A stretch of DNA of 36,930 nucleotides, from positions 1-36,930 of the IMG/VR virus record IMGVR_UViG_3300046167_000598. One strand, given 5' to 3'. Both the position numbers and the translations under genes were made by a program. This stretch comes from a virus. The stretch's first letter is position 1, and every line of letters starts with the position of its first letter. Below are positions 903 through 23,609 of the stretch, piece by piece. The notes under the pieces were generated by a model. It was not told the origin of the DNA. It saw only the letters and a list, made by a program, of their open reading frames with translations, and ran no database searches.

Positions 903-1982
903 TTATGAATCGACGCCAGTCAAGCCGTGGAAAGCAGCGCCCTGAAGAGTCTCAACGCTTCGGTATACGTTAGCAATCATTCGAGTCACACCTTTGTCTG
1001 CATCAGTGTAAGGGTCAACGATGAGGTTTAATCCACCCCACGTTCCAGTTACGATTTGCTGCTTGTCAAAGAAGAACGCGTCAGTCGTTGTTGCTTGAGA
1101 AGAGATAAAGGCAGTGTACCCCATAATTTGACGACGTGTCAAAGGAGAGTCTGCAAACAACATCCCAGAACCAGCATCCATACTCAAAGCACGAAGTTCA
1201 CGATAGGCCGTTGTTCCACACAAAGCAACTACGTTTTCCAAATCAACTTCTGCACCCAACAACAAAGCCTCTACGTCGAGCGGGTTGTTAGTTGCAGCAG
1301 CGTACGCTGTGTCTGTTGATGCAGTGTCAATCTTAGCGATAATATCTGCGTTGAACTTTCGGTCGATAGCTGAACGAATCTCACGAGCGAGGAAAGACCC
1401 CATGTCGTCAGCAGACTGAGCCAACATCTGGTCGGTCACCTGTGTGTGAGCAGCGTAACGAGTTGGAGACAAAGTCTTAGCAGTAAACAATGGATTGCTG
1501 GCAGTTTTCGCTACAGCTTCGTTTGGCGAGCCCGCGTGTGTTTGACCGCTGGTCGCTTCCGTATCGTGGTAAGCACTTTGAACCTGGAACACGACATCAC
1601 CAGTCAAGTTACCCAAGTTTCGGACACCCATCTGAGCAGCCAAGTCGTTTGGTCGGAATGACTCAACCAGGCCGTTGTCTACCGTACCAATCTCACCCCC
1701 GAAAGCGGTGTTTACATCAGCGGCACTAGCGCCAGCAGACATAGGAAGAGCACTCGCACGCAAAACGAACTCAGGGACGCATACACCGCCCGCTACGTTT
1801 ACTTTTGCGTTTGAGAACTCGTTACGAGCCTCTTGGTTCATCTCTGCCTCTAGACCAGTCAATCGGCCCTGAGCAGCTTCCTTTACCATTTTGCCGAAGC
1901 TAAATTGCTTAGCAGTGCGGGCCTCTGAATCGCCGAGGCCCTGGACGAACGCAGGAGCGTTCTTCTTGTTTTCTTTTCCCAT
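903..1982 (-). CDS. Major capsid protein from internal start (putative separate product)
   Basis: An in-frame ATG at 1982, residue 302 of the long frame, opens a 359-residue protein beginning MGKENKKNAPAFVQGLGD. The stretch before it, about 25 bases rich in A and holding ATCAAACAAACAAAA, looks like an intergenic leader rather than coding sequence and resembles leaders of other genes in this window. The size fits a normal HK97-fold capsid protein with a helical N-arm (about residues 20-55). Capsid subunits are needed in hundreds of copies and protease in few, so an independent start would make sense. The start is inferred from sequence only. Confidence 0.55.
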   Translation of the reverse strand: MGKENKKNAPAFVQGLGDSEARTAKQFSFGKMVKEAAQGRLTGLEAEMNQEARNEFSNAKVNVAGGVCVPEFVLRASALPMSAGASAADVNTAFGGEIGTVDNGLVESFRPNDLAAQMGVRNLGNLTGDVVFQVQSAYHDTEATSGQTHAGSPNEAVAKTASNPLFTAKTLSPTRYAAHTQVTDQMLAQSADDMGSFLAREIRSAIDRKFNADIIAKIDTASTDTAYAAATNNPLDVEALLLGAEVDLENVVALCGTTAYRELRALSMDAGSGMLFADSPLTRRQIMGYTAFISSQATTTDAFFFDKQQIVTGTWGGLNLIVDPYTDADKGVTRMIANVYRSVETLQGAAFHGLTGVDS

Positions 1983-2885
1983 AGTGGAATTTTGTTTGTT
2001 TGATTTATTATTACGAGCCTCGGTTGGCTCCTTTTTTTCTGTGTTAAACGCCTGTGAATATGGATGCGGCAAAATTGCTGGATCTACTAATTCATCTACT
2101 CGCTCTTCTTCTTCGTCCTCTTCCTCTTCTTCTTCGCGCTCCTCGTCGTCCTCTTCCTCTTCTTCCTCCTCTTCGGATCGCATCTCCTCGTCCTCTTCCT
2201 CTTCTTCTTCCTTCTCTTCCTCGTCTTCTTCGTCCTCATCCTTTACGCCATCGTAATCGGAATCAACGCCAGGAGGTCGTGTCTCTGCTTTCTCTTCTTC
2301 CTCTTCTTCCTCGTCCATGTAGCCCTTCTCTTCCTCGTCCTCTTCTTCGAGCTTTCGGAGTTCAGCTTCTACACCTTCGTCGAGGAAAGCCTCCATCGAT
2401 CGCAAAGCAACCTCTGTAGTTGGGTAAGCACCCTGAGTGGTAGGCGACACGTCAAACAATGTTTCGACTTCGTTGATTACACGAAGGTTGACACCGTCCT
2501 CTCGGCTCTCCCATGAGTCGTCAGAGATCGTGAATCCGAAGCTAGATGTAGATACGTTGCCCATACGGATGTTCTCCGCTAGGTCCTTCGCGTAACTCTG
2601 GCTTCCGAGTTCAAATCGGTACTTGAGACCCTTGTCATCGACTTCCAGTTCTAATCCGCGACCCACGCGGGCCAATGGCATATTCCAGTCGTGATTGAAC
2701 AGAGCGACAGTGTTAGTCATGTCAGCACCGTCAAAAGCACCTCGTGCAATTCGCTCGGCAAACCTTCCGCCAATAACGGTCTCGTCTTCAAATCGAGCGG
2801 CATATCCCTCCACGACTACGTTTCCGTTCTTTTCGGAACGGATCTCAAAGTCGGAGTTCAGTGACCTCTTTTCTAAGTTTTCCAT
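903..2885 (-). CDS. Prohead protease - acidic scaffold - major capsid protein fusion (HK97 type)
   Basis: A 660-residue open frame with three parts. Residues 1-165 are an HK97-type prohead protease: GYAARF near 28, the catalytic histidine in FNHDW (H65), the catalytic serine in STSSFGF (about S115), and the ETLFDVSPTTQGAY segment. Residues about 174-265 are dominated by Glu and Asp and contain one DSDYDGVKDED loop (208-218) that resembles a calcium-binding DxDxDG site. Residues 302-660 are an HK97-fold major capsid protein. In HK97 the protease is a separate gene and the scaffold is the capsid's delta domain; here all are in one frame. The join contains an A AAA AAG heptamer, three tandem stops in the -1 frame and an internal ATG with its own A-rich leader, so separate protease and capsid products are likely. 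A one-base homopolymer error is an alternative explanation. Confidence 0.88.
   Translation of the reverse strand: MENLEKRSLNSDFEIRSEKNGNVVVEGYAARFEDETVIGGRFAERIARGAFDGADMTNTVALFNHDWNMPLARVGRGLELEVDDKGLKYRFELGSQSYAKDLAENIRMGNVSTSSFGFTISDDSWESREDGVNLRVINEVETLFDVSPTTQGAYPTTEVALRSMEAFLDEGVEAELRKLEEEDEEEKGYMDEEEEEEEKAETRPPGVDSDYDGVKDEDEEDEEEKEEEEEEDEEMRSEEEEEEEEDDEEREEEEEEDEEEERVDELVDPAILPHPYSQAFNTEKKEPTEARNNKSNKQNSTMGKENKKNAPAFVQGLGDSEARTAKQFSFGKMVKEAAQGRLTGLEAEMNQEARNEFSNAKVNVAGGVCVPEFVLRASALPMSAGASAADVNTAFGGEIGTVDNGLVESFRPNDLAAQMGVRNLGNLTGDVVFQVQSAYHDTEATSGQTHAGSPNEAVAKTASNPLFTAKTLSPTRYAAHTQVTDQMLAQSADDMGSFLAREIRSAIDRKFNADIIAKIDTASTDTAYAAATNNPLDVEALLLGAEVDLENVVALCGTTAYRELRALSMDAGSGMLFADSPLTRRQIMGYTAFISSQATTTDAFFFDKQQIVTGTWGGLNLIVDPYTDADKGVTRMIANVYRSVETLQGAAFHGLTGVDS
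2031..2037 (-). promoter_or_regulatory. Candidate -1 frameshift heptamer A AAA AAG in protease-capsid frame
   Basis: The codons GAA AAA AAG (residues 283-285) place the heptamer A AAA AAG in the phase required for -1 slippage. After slippage the ribosome would add Gly-Ala-Asn-Arg-Gly-Ser and meet TAA TAA TAA at 2013-2005, giving a protease-scaffold product of about 291 residues. The same heptamer, in the same phase, is used in the tail chaperone gene at 34242-34248. Alternatively the run of seven A is one base short and the two genes are simply separate. Confidence 0.5.
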
Positions 2886-2895
2886 TATTGGTTAT

Positions 2896-3501
2896 TTATT
2901 TAGATGATAATTTATGCCCCTTTGGAAAGAGGTCTGTGTCATGCTTTCCGCCTCGGAACTTCTCATTCTTTAAGGCGTAAAGATAGCTGTTTACTCTAGC
3001 AAAGGCCCACTGCTCAGGAGACTTGACGCTCGGCCTTACGCTGCCAGGGTTTGTCTTGTAGGCTCCGATTCCTCGGTTGTAAACTTTTTGCAAAGTAGCC
3101 TTGGTGGTTTTCTTGTAACTTGCGTCAACCCCTTCGTTATGGTCTTCTGCCTTCTTCTTGAGGGTGTCCGCTGCGGCTCGCTTTTCTTTTTCAGCCTTGT
3201 TGATCGTGCGTTCACACCAACCCTTCATGCTATCACCACCCCAGGCAGCGTACATGATTGACCCGCAAATATCCTTGCCTTTGTCGTTCGTAAACTTGCC
3301 TTGATCGTAAGTTTTAGCTCGTGACAAAAAAGAGAAGGTACGCTTCACTGTAGACAGGGTAAGCTTTTGGCCTGAAGACAATTGCTTAGCCCTGGTCCAG
3401 CCCACGCTAGTCCCACAACTCGTGCCTTTCTCCTCCTTGTGTTTCAAAGCGGCTTTGGCGCGGTTTTTAGCAGCCTGTGGATATCCTCCGTAGGTTGCCA
3501 T
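2896..3501 (-). CDS. Conserved phage structural-region protein, DUF5824-like C-terminus
   Basis: A basic protein of 201 residues. Residues 30-105 resemble a module seen beside phage head genes: a GWTRAKQL motif, then TVKRTFSFLSRAK, then a WGGD motif with WCERTI. The last 85 residues (KVYNRGIGAYKTNP, SVRPSVKSPEQWAFARV, FRGGKHDTDLFPKGH) resemble the DUF5824 domain of marine phages. Function is unknown. Its ATG at 3501 overlaps the stop of the upstream gene, and it is followed after 10 bases by the protease-capsid gene, so a role in head assembly or maturation is possible. The domain names are from memory of family motifs. Confidence 0.6.
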   Translation of the reverse strand: MATYGGYPQAAKNRAKAALKHKEEKGTSCGTSVGWTRAKQLSSGQKLTLSTVKRTFSFLSRAKTYDQGKFTNDKGKDICGSIMYAAWGGDSMKGWCERTINKAEKEKRAAADTLKKKAEDHNEGVDASYKKTTKATLQKVYNRGIGAYKTNPGSVRPSVKSPEQWAFARVNSYLYALKNEKFRGGKHDTDLFPKGHKLSSK

Positions 3502-3887
3502 TATGCTAGGTCACTAATTACTGAGGCTGCGATAGCCGCCGTTAGCGCGGCAGCGTTTGCTGCGGCATCGTATCCATAAGTGATCTGCCAGACGCCCTTT
3601 CCTACACGCTGTTGCCACGGAGAGGTGTCTTCTGCCGCACCGTCTTCTGCGGTGACTAAGTCTCCGACAACTCCAGTCAAAACCGTAATGGCAGCAGAGT
3701 CATAGAGCTTCATGGCTTTAGCCAGCTCTTTCACCATTACAAGCTGTTCTGCCGCGTCTGGATCGGCGGCACCCTGGAAATAAGCCTGGTGAGTCGTGGA
3801 TAATTGTATCTTAGTGCCATCAGTACCCACAGCGGCTGTGGATCCCTTCGTTCGCACGTTGTTTACTTCAAAGTAGTGTGTGGGCAT
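3501..3887 (-). CDS. Hypothetical small protein between portal and capsid genes
   Basis: I do not recognise this 128-residue protein. The N-terminus is polar and beta-like (HYFEVNNVRTKGST). The middle has helical segments, and the last 35 residues are very rich in alanine (NAAALTAAIAASVISDLA). It starts one base after the portal gene stops, and its stop overlaps the next start. The leader AACAACCAATAAC before the ATG matches the style of other genes here. Position suggests a minor head or decoration protein, but nothing in the sequence proves this. Confidence 0.55.
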   Translation of the reverse strand: MPTHYFEVNNVRTKGSTAAVGTDGTKIQLSTTHQAYFQGAADPDAAEQLVMVKELAKAMKLYDSAAITVLTGVVGDLVTAEDGAAEDTSPWQQRVGKGVWQITYGYDAAANAAALTAAIAASVISDLA

Positions 3888-7835: not shown

Positions 7836-8339
7836 TTAAAATTTTTTTATTCTGACCCGCTTCTTTTTGGCCATCTCCTCACATTGTTCTTTGTACCACT
7901 CGTACATTTTTCTAAGCTCTGGCATGCCAAATTTTTTTAGTTGTTTGGCGCGGAGCATTACTTCCGCAGACACGCCAGGTTGCTCCTTGTCCAGGGCCTG
8001 ACCAAATATCCACTGTTCGCCCTGGGAGTAGAGGTTGCAAGATATGCACTGGGTTCTAATATTCCACTCATGATCCCACCTCGTATTCATGTACCTTCGA
8101 CTAGCGAAGTGCCCGGCCTGTAATTTAGATACGTGATCCTCCTTGCCACATGTGTAGCAACGTGCGATACCGTCCTCGTCAGCCGAACTCCAACGAACGT
8201 ACTTACTGCACCACTCGTCCACCTTCTTCTTCATCTGAGCGTGCGTGTACTTCTTCTCGGCTCTCGGCTTTCCTTTTGCTTTCTTCTTCAATAGTTTGCT
8301 GGATTTGGAGTCTGCGTGATTACTCTGCTTTCTCTTCAT
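7836..8339 (-). CDS. ninG: NinG/Rap-like recombination nuclease
   Basis: A 167-residue protein matching the lambda NinG (Rap) family, which cuts branched DNA such as Holliday junctions. It has a very basic N-terminus (about 35 residues) and the KKVDEWCSKYVRW segment. It then has CYTCG (a zinc-binding CxxC), LQAGHFASRRY, WDHEWNIRTQCISCN (second zinc pair and HNH-like core) and the C-terminal KMYEWYKEQ. All these blocks occur in the expected order. It sits in the packaging operon rather than with replication genes, so it may resolve branched concatemers before packaging. Its start overlaps the previous stop (TAATG). Confidence 0.85.
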   Translation of the reverse strand: MKRKQSNHADSKSSKLLKKKAKGKPRAEKKYTHAQMKKKVDEWCSKYVRWSSADEDGIARCYTCGKEDHVSKLQAGHFASRRYMNTRWDHEWNIRTQCISCNLYSQGEQWIFGQALDKEQPGVSAEVMLRAKQLKKFGMPELRKMYEWYKEQCEEMAKKKRVRIKKF

Positions 8340-8542
8340 TAAACAAGTCCTTCCTGCATGATCATATACACCACTCTCTCGTCATCGGTCTCGACTGAGA
8401 TGTCCATCTTTGAGTCAACACCTTCGATCACCTCGATGTGACACTCATACTCTTCAGCCATGTCACAAAGATAGCTCTTAAAACTATCCTTCTCAACCTC
8501 AGTCCAACCCATACTGTTTATCAGAACCTTCTTCATTTCCAT
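8339..8542 (-). CDS. Hypothetical small protein
   Basis: I do not recognise this acidic protein of up to 67 residues. It has an alternation of strands and helices (KKVLINSMGW, KSYLCDMAEEYE, HIEVIEGVDS, VVYMIMQEG) that could be a small alpha/beta fold. It overlaps the upstream HNH gene by 44 bases if the first ATG is used; ATGs at 8536 and 8512 would shorten the overlap. Its stop is coupled to the NinG-like start. Confidence 0.5.
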   Translation of the reverse strand: MEMKKVLINSMGWTEVEKDSFKSYLCDMAEEYECHIEVIEGVDSKMDISVETDDERVVYMIMQEGLV

Positions 8543-8942
8543 AAAGTTTCTTTCTCATGTATTTAACGCAGCTGTCAAAGTCATCGAACCTAACACCGTT
8601 GGCTTCATAGGACGCTCTCCTGGCGTTACAACTCCGACAACTGCCCACAATGTTACTTTGGTCGTAGCCAGAAATGCCTTTGTTGTCACATCGGTTGAGT
8701 GGGATTACGTGATCTGCCTCGTTCGCTTCTGTCACCTTGCCTAGGTGCAAACACCACTGACATATGGCATCCCGGTTCAGCACAGCCTCCCGTGTCGATC
8801 TCCACTGAGAGGTCTTGTAGAACCCGTTGCTCGCCACTCCCTCGAACGGACGAACCAGGTTTCCTCCTTCGAGCTTCCGCCTGTTCCTTCCCTGCTTTTT
8901 AGCAAGCCAAGGTTTGCGCCTCGATTTCCTTTTGAGTTCCAT
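8499..8942 (-). CDS. HNH endonuclease (packaging-associated type)
   Basis: A 147-residue HNH nuclease. It has a highly basic N-terminus (KRKSRRKPWLAKKQGRNRRK), then FYKTSQWRSTREAVLNRD, a CQWC zinc pair, EADHVIPL (the DH of the HNH core), and SNIVGSCRSCNARRAS (the asparagine and second zinc pair). HNH proteins of this size next to terminase genes assist the terminase nuclease in many HK97-like phages. It is the first gene of the leftward late operon. The ATG is only 4 bases from a TACATTTG box, so its mRNA may have almost no leader. Confidence 0.85.
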   Translation of the reverse strand: MELKRKSRRKPWLAKKQGRNRRKLEGGNLVRPFEGVASNGFYKTSQWRSTREAVLNRDAICQWCLHLGKVTEANEADHVIPLNRCDNKGISGYDQSNIVGSCRSCNARRASYEANGVRFDDFDSCVKYMRKKLYGNEEGSDKQYGLD

Positions 8943-9197: not shown

Positions 9198-9295
9198 TTT
9201 AACTCCCCCCTCCTCGTGTTGAAACGCGTTTAAAGAAAGCCCGCCCGCCGACGGTCCCCGTTCACTGCCATATCGTGTCCAAAGTACACCTACCC

Positions 9296-9408
9296 TTCGT
9301 CGATAATTATAGCGTGTTCGTCGATGATAATGTGCTGTTCGTCGATTCGTCGATGATTATATATCGTTCATCGATGATTATAGTTCGTTCATCGAAATTC
9401 CAACATCG
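9296..9408 (+). repeat. Iteron cluster 1, 21-bp period
   Basis: Units begin with TTCGTCGA or TTCATCGA at 9296, 9317, 9346, 9367 and 9388, with a truncated 8-base unit at 9338. The best consensus of the first 16 bases is TTCRTCGATGATTATA. Spacing is exactly 21 bases, two helical turns, which places protein sites on one face of the DNA. A 15-bp palindrome flanks the cluster on each side (9275-9289 and 9408-9422). Confidence 0.85.
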
Positions 9409-9511
9409 TGTCCAATGTACACGATACAATTCAGTGAATACTAAAATGTTAAAATATGTTAACGCCGTCGAACGTGTTGCTTTTTTACGTATACGCGAGC
9501 CATTGCGCAGT

Positions 9512-9535
9512 GTTGATAACTTTGTTGATAACTTT
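9512..9535 (+). promoter_or_regulatory. Tandem 12-mer GTTGATAACTTT carrying two TAnnTTTG boxes
   Basis: GTTGATAACTTT is repeated head to tail, followed by G. Each copy creates TAACTTTG (9517-9524 and 9529-9536), a match to the Bacteroidetes -7 consensus. A TTG at 9503-9505 lies 23 bases before the second box, at the long end of the usual spacing. This could be a rightward promoter reading across the origin, or simply protein-binding repeats. Confidence 0.4.
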
Positions 9536-9556
9536 GAATAGAATTAACATTTAAAG

Positions 9557-9758
9557 CTTGACTCGTATACGTGTTGTGACATGACACGTTTTAAGGCGTT
9601 TTAAGCGCATTTAGGTGCTTTTTGGTATCCTAGTACCTTTCGCCTTTCGTTATACGCTCTATCAAAAAAGTACCCATGAATGGCTGTTTTTACCCGATTA
9701 ATAGCGGATAATCTTCGATAAAGATATTTGTTAAAATACTTGACTCGTATTCATGGGT
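9557..9758 (+). repeat. Direct repeat CTTGACTCGTATWC and inverted ACCCATGAAT pair
   Basis: CTTGACTCGTATAC (9557-9570) recurs as CTTGACTCGTATTC (9739-9752). The second copy overlaps ATTCATGGGT (9749-9758), which is the inverse of ACCCATGAAT at 9672-9681. Both direct copies follow AT-rich sequence. No gene lies in this stretch. Confidence 0.5.
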
Positions 9759-9770
9759 TAATATCGCCTG

Positions 9771-9812
9771 TTCGTCGATTGTTTTCCGCTCTTCGTCGAA
9801 TAATTGTATAAT
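9771..9812 (+). repeat. Iteron cluster 2, two 21-bp units
   Basis: TTCGTCGA occurs at 9771 and again at 9792, the same 21-base phase as in the main cluster. The second half of each unit is less conserved but AT-rich (AATAATTGTATAAT). Confidence 0.7.
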
Positions 9813-9861
9813 AATTTGGAATTGTGATTGTCGTGTATTAGACGCGAGCCGCCCCATTTGC

Positions 9862-10131
9862 TAAATGCTTGATACTCAGTGAGTTACGCGTAAATGCTTG
9901 ATACTCAGTGAGTTAGCAAAAATATCGTGTACTTTGGACACGGGTGAAAAAAAAGCCATATTCGTCGAACATTATCGGTGTTTCATCGAGCTTTTTAACC
10001 TTTATGTCGAAAATACGAAAAAAAATTTCAAACAGGGGTAACGCACTGACAATCAACGAGTTACAAAAATATCGTGTACTTTGGACACCCCTAAAAATAG
10101 GTGCTAACTGCTTGATACTCAGTGAGTTACG
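9862..10131 (+). repeat. Direct repeat TTGATACTCAGTGAGTTA, three copies
   Basis: A 25-base element ending in this sequence occurs at 9862-9886 and 9891-9915, in tandem with a 29-base period. A 23-base form recurs at 10109-10131. The centre ACTCAGTGAGT is a perfect odd palindrome. The second and third copies are followed, after a short AT-rich spacer, by the GTGTACTTTGGACAC element, forming composite units. A degenerate unit occupies 10039-10088. Confidence 0.75.
9961..10023 (+). repeat. Iteron cluster 3, three 21-bp units
   Basis: TTCGTCGA at 9961, TTCATCGA at 9982 and a degenerate TATGTCGA at 10003 keep the 21-base phase. The cluster lies between two copies of the palindromic element (9927 and 10074). 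Confidence 0.65.
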
Positions 10132-10232
10132 AATTATTATATGTACTTTGGACACGATAGTTTGAGAACGAAATGCTCGTCCAATATTTGCCCCATCAAA
10201 CGAAACAAACACACACACAAACACAGCACGAT

Positions 10233-21467: not shown

Positions 21468-21727
21468 TGCAGGTTATCTTACTACTGGCCGACGTAGGTC
21501 TGTTTGTTTTGGGATACATGATTTTAAATAAACAAAAAGAAATCATGATCCTTGCCAACAGGCGTGAGAGGACACGATCCAGGGTGCCTAGAAAGAAGCG
21601 TGACAAACGTTACGTGATCGTAAAAAAGACTCATGAGCGAGAGGTGGTTAGAGTTGTGCCGACCGCCACAGAGTTTATGAGAAGTCAATACCAAAGAGTA
21701 GCAAAACAATACAATGAAAAAAAATGA
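21467..21727 (+). CDS. Small membrane-anchored basic protein
   Basis: An 86-residue protein. MQVILLLADVGLFVLGYMIL is one membrane span, followed by a very basic stretch (RRERTRSRVPRKKRDKR) and a polar tail. I use the ATG that overlaps the preceding TGA (TGATG); the reading could begin one codon earlier with TTG. It overlaps the reductase start by 14 bases. A membrane protein of this type could tether phage DNA or proteins to the membrane; no family recognised. Confidence 0.55.
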   Translation: MQVILLLADVGLFVLGYMILNKQKEIMILANRRERTRSRVPRKKRDKRYVIVKKTHEREVVRVVPTATEFMRSQYQRVAKQYNEKK

Positions 21728-23609
21728 AACACCATGGGGAGAAGTAGGTTACCCCGTCTTTAAAAGAACCTATGCCCGTCCATTGGAAGGTGATTCTGGA
21801 CCGACCGAGGAATGGGAAGACACAGTTGACCGCGTGGTCAAAGCTTGTGACGAACAGCTTAACGTTGGCTTCACTCAGTTTGAGGAGGGAGAGCTTAAAC
21901 GCATCATGATGGAGCTTAAAGGCACCGTCGCTGGTCGATTCCTTTGGCAGCTAGGCACAAAGACAGTCGATCGACTAGGGCTTCCGTCCTTGCAGAACTG
22001 CGCCTTTGTCGTGGTCGATGATCCTATCCGTCCATTCACCTGGGCATTCGAGATGCTCATGCTTGGGTCGGGAGTGGGGTTTAATATCCAACGAGAGAAC
22101 GTATACCAACTGCCTAAAGTAAAGAACCGGGTATCTGTTGACCGCATAGACGCTAACGACGCAGACTTTATTGTGCCTGACAGCAGAGAGGGCTGGGTTG
22201 AGCTGCTTCGTCGTGTACTTGAGTCTTCGTTTGTAACAGGAGAGGACTTCACCTATGCTACTCACCTCATACGATCTAAAGGGTCTGCCATCAAAGGCTT
22301 TGGAGGCACCGCTTCTGGACCAGAGGATTTGGTTTGGGGAATGGGTGAGATCAACGCGATCCTGAACAATCGCTCAGGGCGTCGATTACGGCCTGTCGAC
22401 TGCTTGGATGTGATGAACATCATCGGCAAGATTGTAGTGGCAGGAAACGTACGCAGAAGCGCCCAGATTGCACTTGGTGACTGCGACGACATCGAGTACC
22501 TACAGGCAAAGCGATGGGACCTTGGAGGCATACCTAACTGGAGAGCCATGTCCAACAATTCTGTGATCTGTTCAGACATGGAGCTGTTGCCAGAGGAGTT
22601 TTGGGAAGGCTACAGAGGAAACGGCGAGCCTTATGGATTAATCAACCTTGACGCCTCACGCAAGATGGGACGTACGTTTGAGGTAGAGTATCCTGATCCA
22701 GACGTGCAGGGATTCAATCCTTGTGCGGAGCAGTCCCTTGCTAACTTTGAGACATGTTGTTTGGCTGAGATCTATTTGCCTAACATCGAGCACTACGAGG
22801 AGCTCAAAAAGGTTGCTCGTTATCTTTACAGGATTAACAAGCACAGCCTGTCGATCAAGTGTGCCATTAAAGAAACAGAGGACATCGTCCACAAAAACAT
22901 GCGAATGGGAATCGGAGTGACTGGGTACCTCCAGGCCACCGAGGAACAGCGCGGTTGGTTGGACGAGTGCTACAACTACCTACGATCATATGACAAAGAA
23001 TATTCTAGACTGGCGGGATTCCCAGCATCTATTAAGCTTACAACAGTCAAGCCTTCTGGAACGCTTAGTTTACTTGCTGGCGTTACACCAGGAGCTCACC
23101 CAGGATACAGTCAACACTACATTAGACGAGTCCGAATGGCGGTTGATAGCGATCTGGCACTTACCGCCAGGCAGCACGGGTACCCTGTGGAGTTCGTGTT
23201 GAACTTTGACGGCACGGAAGACAAGTCTACTGTGGTTGTTAGCTTTCCATGTAAGTTCCCAGAGCACACTAAGTTTGCAGAGGACATGACAGCGATCGAT
23301 CAGCTAGAGGTTATTAAACGACTCCAGGCCGAGTGGTCAGATAACGCGGTGTCAGTGACAATCTACTATCGCCTTGAGGAGCTAGACCAGATAAAGGAGT
23401 GGCTTTCGAAGAACTACAAAAACGTGAAGTCTGTTTCCTTCCTATTGCACAGCGACCATGGGTTTAAGCAAGCTCCGCTGGAGGAAATCGACGAAAAGAC
23501 CTACCTGGAAATGTCAAGCACAGTGACTCCTATTAAGAGCATTGAGGAGCTTACTATCGATGAGGTAGAGATTGATGATTGTGAAACCGGAGCATGCCCA
23601 GTACGATGA
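21714..23609 (+). CDS. nrdJ: Class II (adenosylcobalamin-dependent) ribonucleotide reductase
   Basis: Reduces ribonucleotides to deoxyribonucleotides for phage DNA synthesis, using vitamin B12 as the radical source. The 631-residue protein carries the redox cysteine C96 (SLQNCAFV), the NPCAEQ motif (N335, C337, E339) that holds the radical cysteine and base-accepting residues, and C348 eleven residues on. All have the spacing seen in the Lactobacillus enzyme (119, 408, 410, 419). The C-terminal CETGAC (CX4C) shuttle pair is also present. It is shorter than the 739-residue relative. All key residues are present, so it is likely active. The host must supply or scavenge B12. Confidence 0.93.
   Translation: MKKNETPWGEVGYPVFKRTYARPLEGDSGPTEEWEDTVDRVVKACDEQLNVGFTQFEEGELKRIMMELKGTVAGRFLWQLGTKTVDRLGLPSLQNCAFVVVDDPIRPFTWAFEMLMLGSGVGFNIQRENVYQLPKVKNRVSVDRIDANDADFIVPDSREGWVELLRRVLESSFVTGEDFTYATHLIRSKGSAIKGFGGTASGPEDLVWGMGEINAILNNRSGRRLRPVDCLDVMNIIGKIVVAGNVRRSAQIALGDCDDIEYLQAKRWDLGGIPNWRAMSNNSVICSDMELLPEEFWEGYRGNGEPYGLINLDASRKMGRTFEVEYPDPDVQGFNPCAEQSLANFETCCLAEIYLPNIEHYEELKKVARYLYRINKHSLSIKCAIKETEDIVHKNMRMGIGVTGYLQATEEQRGWLDECYNYLRSYDKEYSRLAGFPASIKLTTVKPSGTLSLLAGVTPGAHPGYSQHYIRRVRMAVDSDLALTARQHGYPVEFVLNFDGTEDKSTVVVSFPCKFPEHTKFAEDMTAIDQLEVIKRLQAEWSDNAVSVTIYYRLEELDQIKEWLSKNYKNVKSVSFLLHSDHGFKQAPLEEIDEKTYLEMSSTVTPIKSIEELTIDEVEIDDCETGACPVR

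Follow-up and report, generated by a model that had tools for sequence, protein, structure and literature searches.

A putative second capsid start codon and a small RNA hairpin ahead of it are conserved inside the protease-capsid fusion gene of a phage family

The window, i.e., the whole stretch of DNA that was analysed, is a 36,930-base record of an uncultured virus. Its minus strand carries a gene that joins a prohead serine protease, an acidic linker and an HK97-type capsid protein in a single reading frame. The features of this gene are as follows.

903-2885, minus strand: protease-acidic linker-capsid fusion open reading frame of 660 amino acids, whose frame is open in all two-domain relatives, apart from two breaks within the capsid that are described below
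2382-2852, minus strand: prohead serine protease domain, Peptidase_S78 (PF04586), residues 12-168 (Pfam, E 1e-40)
2085-2354 (approximate bounds), minus strand: Glu/Asp-rich linker, highly variable in length among relatives and always a multiple of three
2031-2037, minus strand: A AAA AAG heptamer, judged incidental
2015-2030, minus strand: stem-loop GAGCC-AACCGA-GGCTC in the coding RNA, single copy, with fixed synonymous sites and outlasting peptide changes
2005-2013, minus strand: TAA TAA TAA in the -1 frame, judged incidental
1983-2014, minus strand: A/U-rich leader preceding the internal ATG, defined by composition and GC3 across 65 junctions
1980-1982, minus strand: internal ATG at which the capsid protein is proposed to begin
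1794-1982, minus strand: first 63 residues of the proposed capsid protein, with helices at 20-56 in the model, probably a short cleaved delta-like region
903-1982, minus strand: proposed separate capsid protein of 359 amino acids with a predicted HK97 fold (model pLDDT 64 and Foldseek)

Pfam places the Phage_capsid domain at residues 439-638 of the fusion, and the phrog_617 profile spans both domains (residues 44-638 aligned, E 4e-33). As in other phrog_617-type serine protease-capsid fusions, an N-terminal protease domain is followed by a C-terminal HK97-fold capsid in the same, stop-free frame. The first-pass annotation had described this frame of 660 codons, a run of seven A (2032-2038) with A AAA AAG in slipping phase, three successive stops in the -1 frame and an in-frame ATG at 1982, and all of these elements are present.

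The surroundings of the gene and the remainder of the window contain several other features. A 128-aa protein encoded at 3501-3887, flanked by the portal and a DUF5824 protein, has no Pfam or PHROG match. Genes for a NinG/Rap-like junction endonuclease and an HNH endonuclease (7836-8339 and 8499-8942) lie near the terminase block, and a ribonucleotide reductase gene (phrog_367, E 7e-130) occupies 21714-23609. Between two divergent gene blocks, the region 9270-10160 contains direct repeats of 25-52 nt (TGCTTGATACTCAGTGAGTTA; TTCGTCGATGATTATA), along with copies of an 18-nt sequence (CGTGTCCAAAGTACACGATA-like), some in each orientation, at 9272, 9405, 9923, 10070 and 10142. It resembles a regulatory region or an origin.

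Are the protease and capsid domains genuinely encoded as one continuous gene? A scan of IMG/VR with the fusion yielded 79 loci and a scan with a capsid-only alignment yielded 80, many of them on the same contigs. Among the two-domain loci, 122 are fused in one open frame, and the only two exceptions (L036 and L044) are broken inside the capsid, with open junctions. Removal of identical junctions left 65 distinct junctions, a number that overstates the sample size because the relatives are not independent. The distance from the protease to the internal Met takes 37 distinct values between 40 and 161 codons and always stays in frame, indicating that the linker is translated through and that the fusion noted in the first-pass annotation is thus real. 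That annotation had also offered a rival view, in which a one-base sequencing or assembly error hides a true run of eight A and the protease and capsid are separate genes. Homopolymer runs are indeed error-prone, and L036 and L044 illustrate such errors within the capsid. However, the identical seven A recur in contigs of different metagenomes (L002-L007 and L009). Furthermore, relatives without any A-run are equally fused, and for this reason the error can be set aside with near certainty. The family recognized by these comparisons, with protease and capsid in one continuous gene, is one of uncultured, mostly marine phages; a close isolate or host genome for the window's phage was sought and not found.

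The heptamer and the triple stop had also been read as a programmed -1 frameshift, through which a share of the ribosomes would end at TAA TAA TAA and release a 291-aa protease-linker protein. A AAA AAG (2037-2031) fits the N NNX XXY YYZ phase of a canonical slippery site, and the -1 frame reads KK-GANRGS before the stops (2013-2005). Another clade carries an in-phase T TTA AAC ahead of the hairpin, and in-phase heptamers as a class number 21 against 6.6 in a synonymous-codon null, although this count ignores descent and its excess is confined to a few related clades. However, A AAA AAG occurs in only 9 of the 65 junctions, and 44 of them have no in-phase A/T-type heptamer. The presence of A AAA AAG changes state at least five times on a tree of 57 members, and in close relatives a deletion or substitution leaves no heptamer (NTEPTEAR in L008, L024 and L039; EKVEPTEAR in L015). 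The structure that stimulates frameshifting usually lies 5-9 nt downstream of the slippery heptamer, whereas the stem starts 0 nt after A AAA AAG and 3 nt after T TTA AAC. The stops themselves are read in frame 0 as CGT AAT AAT AAA (Arg-Asn-Asn-Lys) in the A/U-rich linker. For the window's linker peptide, such a triple stop has a probability of 0.03 under gene-wide codon usage and 0.17 under leader codon usage, and the earlier statement that three stops in a row are hard to get by chance was therefore too strong. Over the 65 junctions, 119 -1 stops were counted where gene-wide codon usage predicts 106; in the comparison based on leader codon usage, 109 were counted and 121 predicted, which leaves no excess. 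For A AAA AAG itself, the probability under the encoded peptide is 0.11. Compared with a dnaX-like -1 site, the locus thus has an in-phase heptamer and lacks a structure at 5-9 nt, a conserved site and a selected -1 stop. Conservation, spacing, codon nulls and tree counts all argue against frameshifting, which we reject as very improbable, and the suspected frameshift signal is, on this comparison, an incidental feature of a few family members. The in-frame fusion and the internal capsid start are what stands of the first-pass interpretation.

The internal Met is found in all 65 junctions, 9-13 residues ahead of Q-x-x-GD, in a linker that otherwise varies. The sequence upstream of this codon has the composition of an initiation region. 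The last 20 nt before the Met contain 51% A and 4% G in the 65 junctions, compared with 26% A and 29% G at positions -20 to -1 of 1056 other internal Mets. The folding energy from -25 to +20 is -3.0 kcal/mol at the internal Met versus -8.2 kcal/mol at the other Mets and -2.6 kcal/mol at the window's other gene starts. The bias extends to synonymous positions, with AAA used in 23 of 23 leader codons of its kind (33% elsewhere), CAA in 13 of 13 (38%) and GAA in 11 of 11 (47%), and with an AAT share of 67% versus 25% elsewhere. The GC3 of the leader is 22%, whereas 60% is expected for the same amino acids. A consensus scan revealed no sigma-70 promoter near the internal start.

In the lambda C/Nu3 system, a shorter head protein is produced from an internal in-frame start inside the protease gene. 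The window's family likewise presents a conserved in-frame start codon and an initiation-type upstream sequence, and the internal capsid start suggested by the first-pass annotation thereby gains support, with the capsid product itself being predicted. The inner product is a scaffold in lambda, whereas it is proposed to be the capsid protein itself in the window's gene. Among the representatives, A is found at -3 in 72% and at -12 in 66%. A at these two positions matches positive determinants of initiation measured in Flavobacterium johnsoniae, a member of the Bacteroidota that dispenses with Shine-Dalgarno (SD) sequences (PMC6847099). From this -3/-12 match alone, we infer a Bacteroidota-type host for the window's phage.

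Between the linker and the leader lies a stem-loop with the consensus GAGCC-N(3-6)-GGCTC. In 58 of the 65 junctions, 14-32 nt separate the end of this pattern from the ATG, and no locus contains the pattern twice (1.05 Mb of loci). The codons of the stem were compared in 32 representatives with a median capsid identity of 53%. The stem Ala codon is GCT in 26 of 26 and the first Glu codon is GAG in 25 of 25, as it also is in L061, whereas at other conserved Ala and Glu columns the share of a single codon is at most 78% and 87%, respectively. The third base of the Pro codon falls in the loop and is variable. The stem also persists where the peptide changes. L096 has a compensatory GAGCT-GGA-AGCTC, the only clear double compensatory change seen, and L125, which is missed by the pattern, keeps the stem with another peptide as GAGC-GTTCA-GCTC. 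L061 places GAGC and GCTC around a longer loop (a 14-nt-loop form is also among the variants), L035, L048 and L059 carry CGAG-GAAA-CTCG, and the stem-loop is absent from L027 and L029-L034. The hairpin pair counts leave out the MAFFT alignment (right-aligned). The stem-loop is short, with five pairs, and because its single-sequence folding p-values are weak (median 0.12), the support for the hairpin comes from the fixed synonymous sites and from the persistence of the stem where the peptide differs. No Rfam match was obtained for the stem-loop. The encoded EPEAR as a mere protease site was rejected, since the peptide differs while the stem persists (L096, L125 and L061), and a repeated operator was rejected, since the stem-loop is single-copy in each carrying locus. 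On the plus strand, 2015-2038 reads as a hairpin followed by seven T, a terminator-like arrangement for antisense transcription that is restricted to the A-run clade.

Fusions of this kind are also present in isolates. Members of the phrog_617 'major head protein' group (R4C, VP882, phiHAP-1, CRP-811, vB_EcoM-ep3, S-CBS1 and others) likewise encode a serine protease and an HK97 capsid in frame. A junction Met is found in all 19 isolate phages with protease-capsid fusions. An anti-SD match of 4 nt or longer, spaced 3-12 nt from the start codon, precedes 14 of these 19 Mets and 56 of the 301 remaining internal Mets (Fisher p = 9e-7; the test is post hoc, since an exploratory scan came first and the isolate Mets were then chosen by position). 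For example, Roseobacter phage CRP-811 has an ATG at codon 404 (3623-3625) with TAAGGAG 6 nt upstream; its fusion is annotated as an 816-aa 'major capsid protein' and is extended at the N-terminus by a region that includes a TUDOR-like domain. In the phrog_617 isolates, an SD match usually precedes the junction Met and a long helical delta domain follows it, whereas the window's fusion lacks an SD sequence and has a hairpin and an A-rich leader before the Met and a short N-terminal region after it. A nested capsid start thus seems, from these junctions, to be general among such fusions, with a local initiation signal that follows the host.

For the predicted 359-aa product, AlphaFold2 gives an HK97-type core with moderate confidence (pLDDT 64), and the best solved Foldseek match to this model is the capsid of the marine roseophage R4C (8gta, E 1.6e-12). 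HK97 proheads are among the top matches (Prohead II, TMt 0.70), and a profile search likewise returned 8gta as its only match. R4C has a fused protease-capsid coding sequence of 629 residues, of which the solved chain starts at residue 362 with GGVLV; N-terminal processing therefore probably occurs in the R4C group. The window's GGVCV resembles GGVLV, and on this similarity a short stretch of about 63 residues may be cleaved from the N-terminus of the 359-aa product. By analogy with R4C, the window's fusion would undergo proteolytic maturation in the virion.

We propose, with a probability of about 77%, that one frame yields two head proteins by two starts and not by frameshifting. Initiation at 2885 would produce the full 660-aa protease-linker-capsid fusion, and initiation at the internal ATG (1982) would yield only the capsid protein of 359 aa, probably as by far the more abundant product. 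This second start would operate without an SD sequence, through an A-rich, G-free and unstructured leader of the Bacteroidota type. The stem-loop just upstream of the leader appears to be kept by selection on the RNA and most likely keeps the leader open or marks the start region. A few fusion molecules would co-assemble with capsid subunits and so carry the protease into the procapsid, where it would trim the capsid N-termini and free itself. What evolution has conserved here is, as far as sequence comparison can tell, a hidden second start codon for the capsid and a small RNA hairpin ahead of it.

Could all subunits instead be made as the 660-aa fusion, with the protease excising itself together with the linker and with the Met and A-rich linker serving as a flexible, cleavable peptide? 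The fused frame is universal, and a cleaved polyprotein would also conserve it, so the fusion is not strictly required to be a minor product. The R4C chain points to N-terminal removal from a comparable fused coding sequence, and the available parts of the Gifsy-2 and MD8 descriptions give tripartite genes without mentioning an internal start. However, a polyprotein does not account for a Met that never varies while the Asn/Ser-rich linker around it does, for the shift in synonymous codons across the leader or for the SD matches at the equivalent Met of the isolate fusions, and it would require some 415 protease domains for each T=7 head. We therefore consider production by polyprotein cleavage alone quite unlikely. 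A different doubt concerns the stem-loop, which might act in DNA or as an mRNA processing site (an operator, a cleavage point or a stabiliser of the capsid-transcript 5′ end) and not in translation. Its palindromic form, its single copy per locus and its fixed synonymous sites would suit such a role, as would the T-run that follows the stem on the opposite strand in the A-run clade. Nevertheless, the 3-6 nt loop and the CGAG-GAAA-CTCG and 14-nt-loop forms resemble RNA stems, and further copies, as expected of an operator, are not seen; we regard this role as unlikely, if still worth keeping in mind. The two-start reading accommodates the Met, the leader and the hairpin together.

The order of portal, protease and capsid is the same in HK97 (gp4/gp5), Cellulophaga phage phi39:1 (gp11/gp12) and an uncultured Bacteroidales prophage (L139), in which the protease and capsid are separate genes, unlike the window's fusion. 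The Gifsy-2 protease is ClpP-like. In the descriptions available in part, the Salmonella phage Gifsy-2 has a tripartite capsid gene (Effantin et al. 2010, as referenced in PMC8538268), as does Pseudomonas phage MD8 in gene 5, whose protease was modelled as ClpP-like (PMC8508860). Both genes, like that of the window, combine a protease, a middle scaffold-like region and an HK97-fold capsid, whereas the window's protease is a Peptidase_S78, unlike that of MD8. In the available parts of these two descriptions, neither a hairpin nor an internal start was found. More broadly, the literature searched, with partial coverage of subscription papers, describes tripartite genes without a nested capsid start in any such fusion; within the same coverage, no description of a hairpin plus leader of the window's type was found. 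Thus, the protease-capsid fusion is of a known kind (Gifsy-2, MD8 and phrog_617), and the SD-less candidate nested start with its conserved hairpin appears, within that coverage, to be a new form of it.

Many phages have protease-capsid fusions that are annotated as single 'major capsid proteins'. The junction Met and the initiation signals, in the window's family and in the 19 isolate fusions, suggest that a separate capsid protein has been overlooked in these annotations. A nested start offers a simple answer to the need for few proteases and hundreds of capsid subunits from one gene. Tentatively, the stem-loop and the G-free, A-rich leader may constitute a compact, SD-independent internal initiation element within a coding sequence, kept across a diverse phage family, that determines how much protease is made relative to capsid protein; the fusion would then serve to deliver the protease to the procapsid interior. 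The SD-less version with its hairpin would be a tractable case of in-frame start-site choice in hosts whose ribosomes ignore Shine-Dalgarno sequences.
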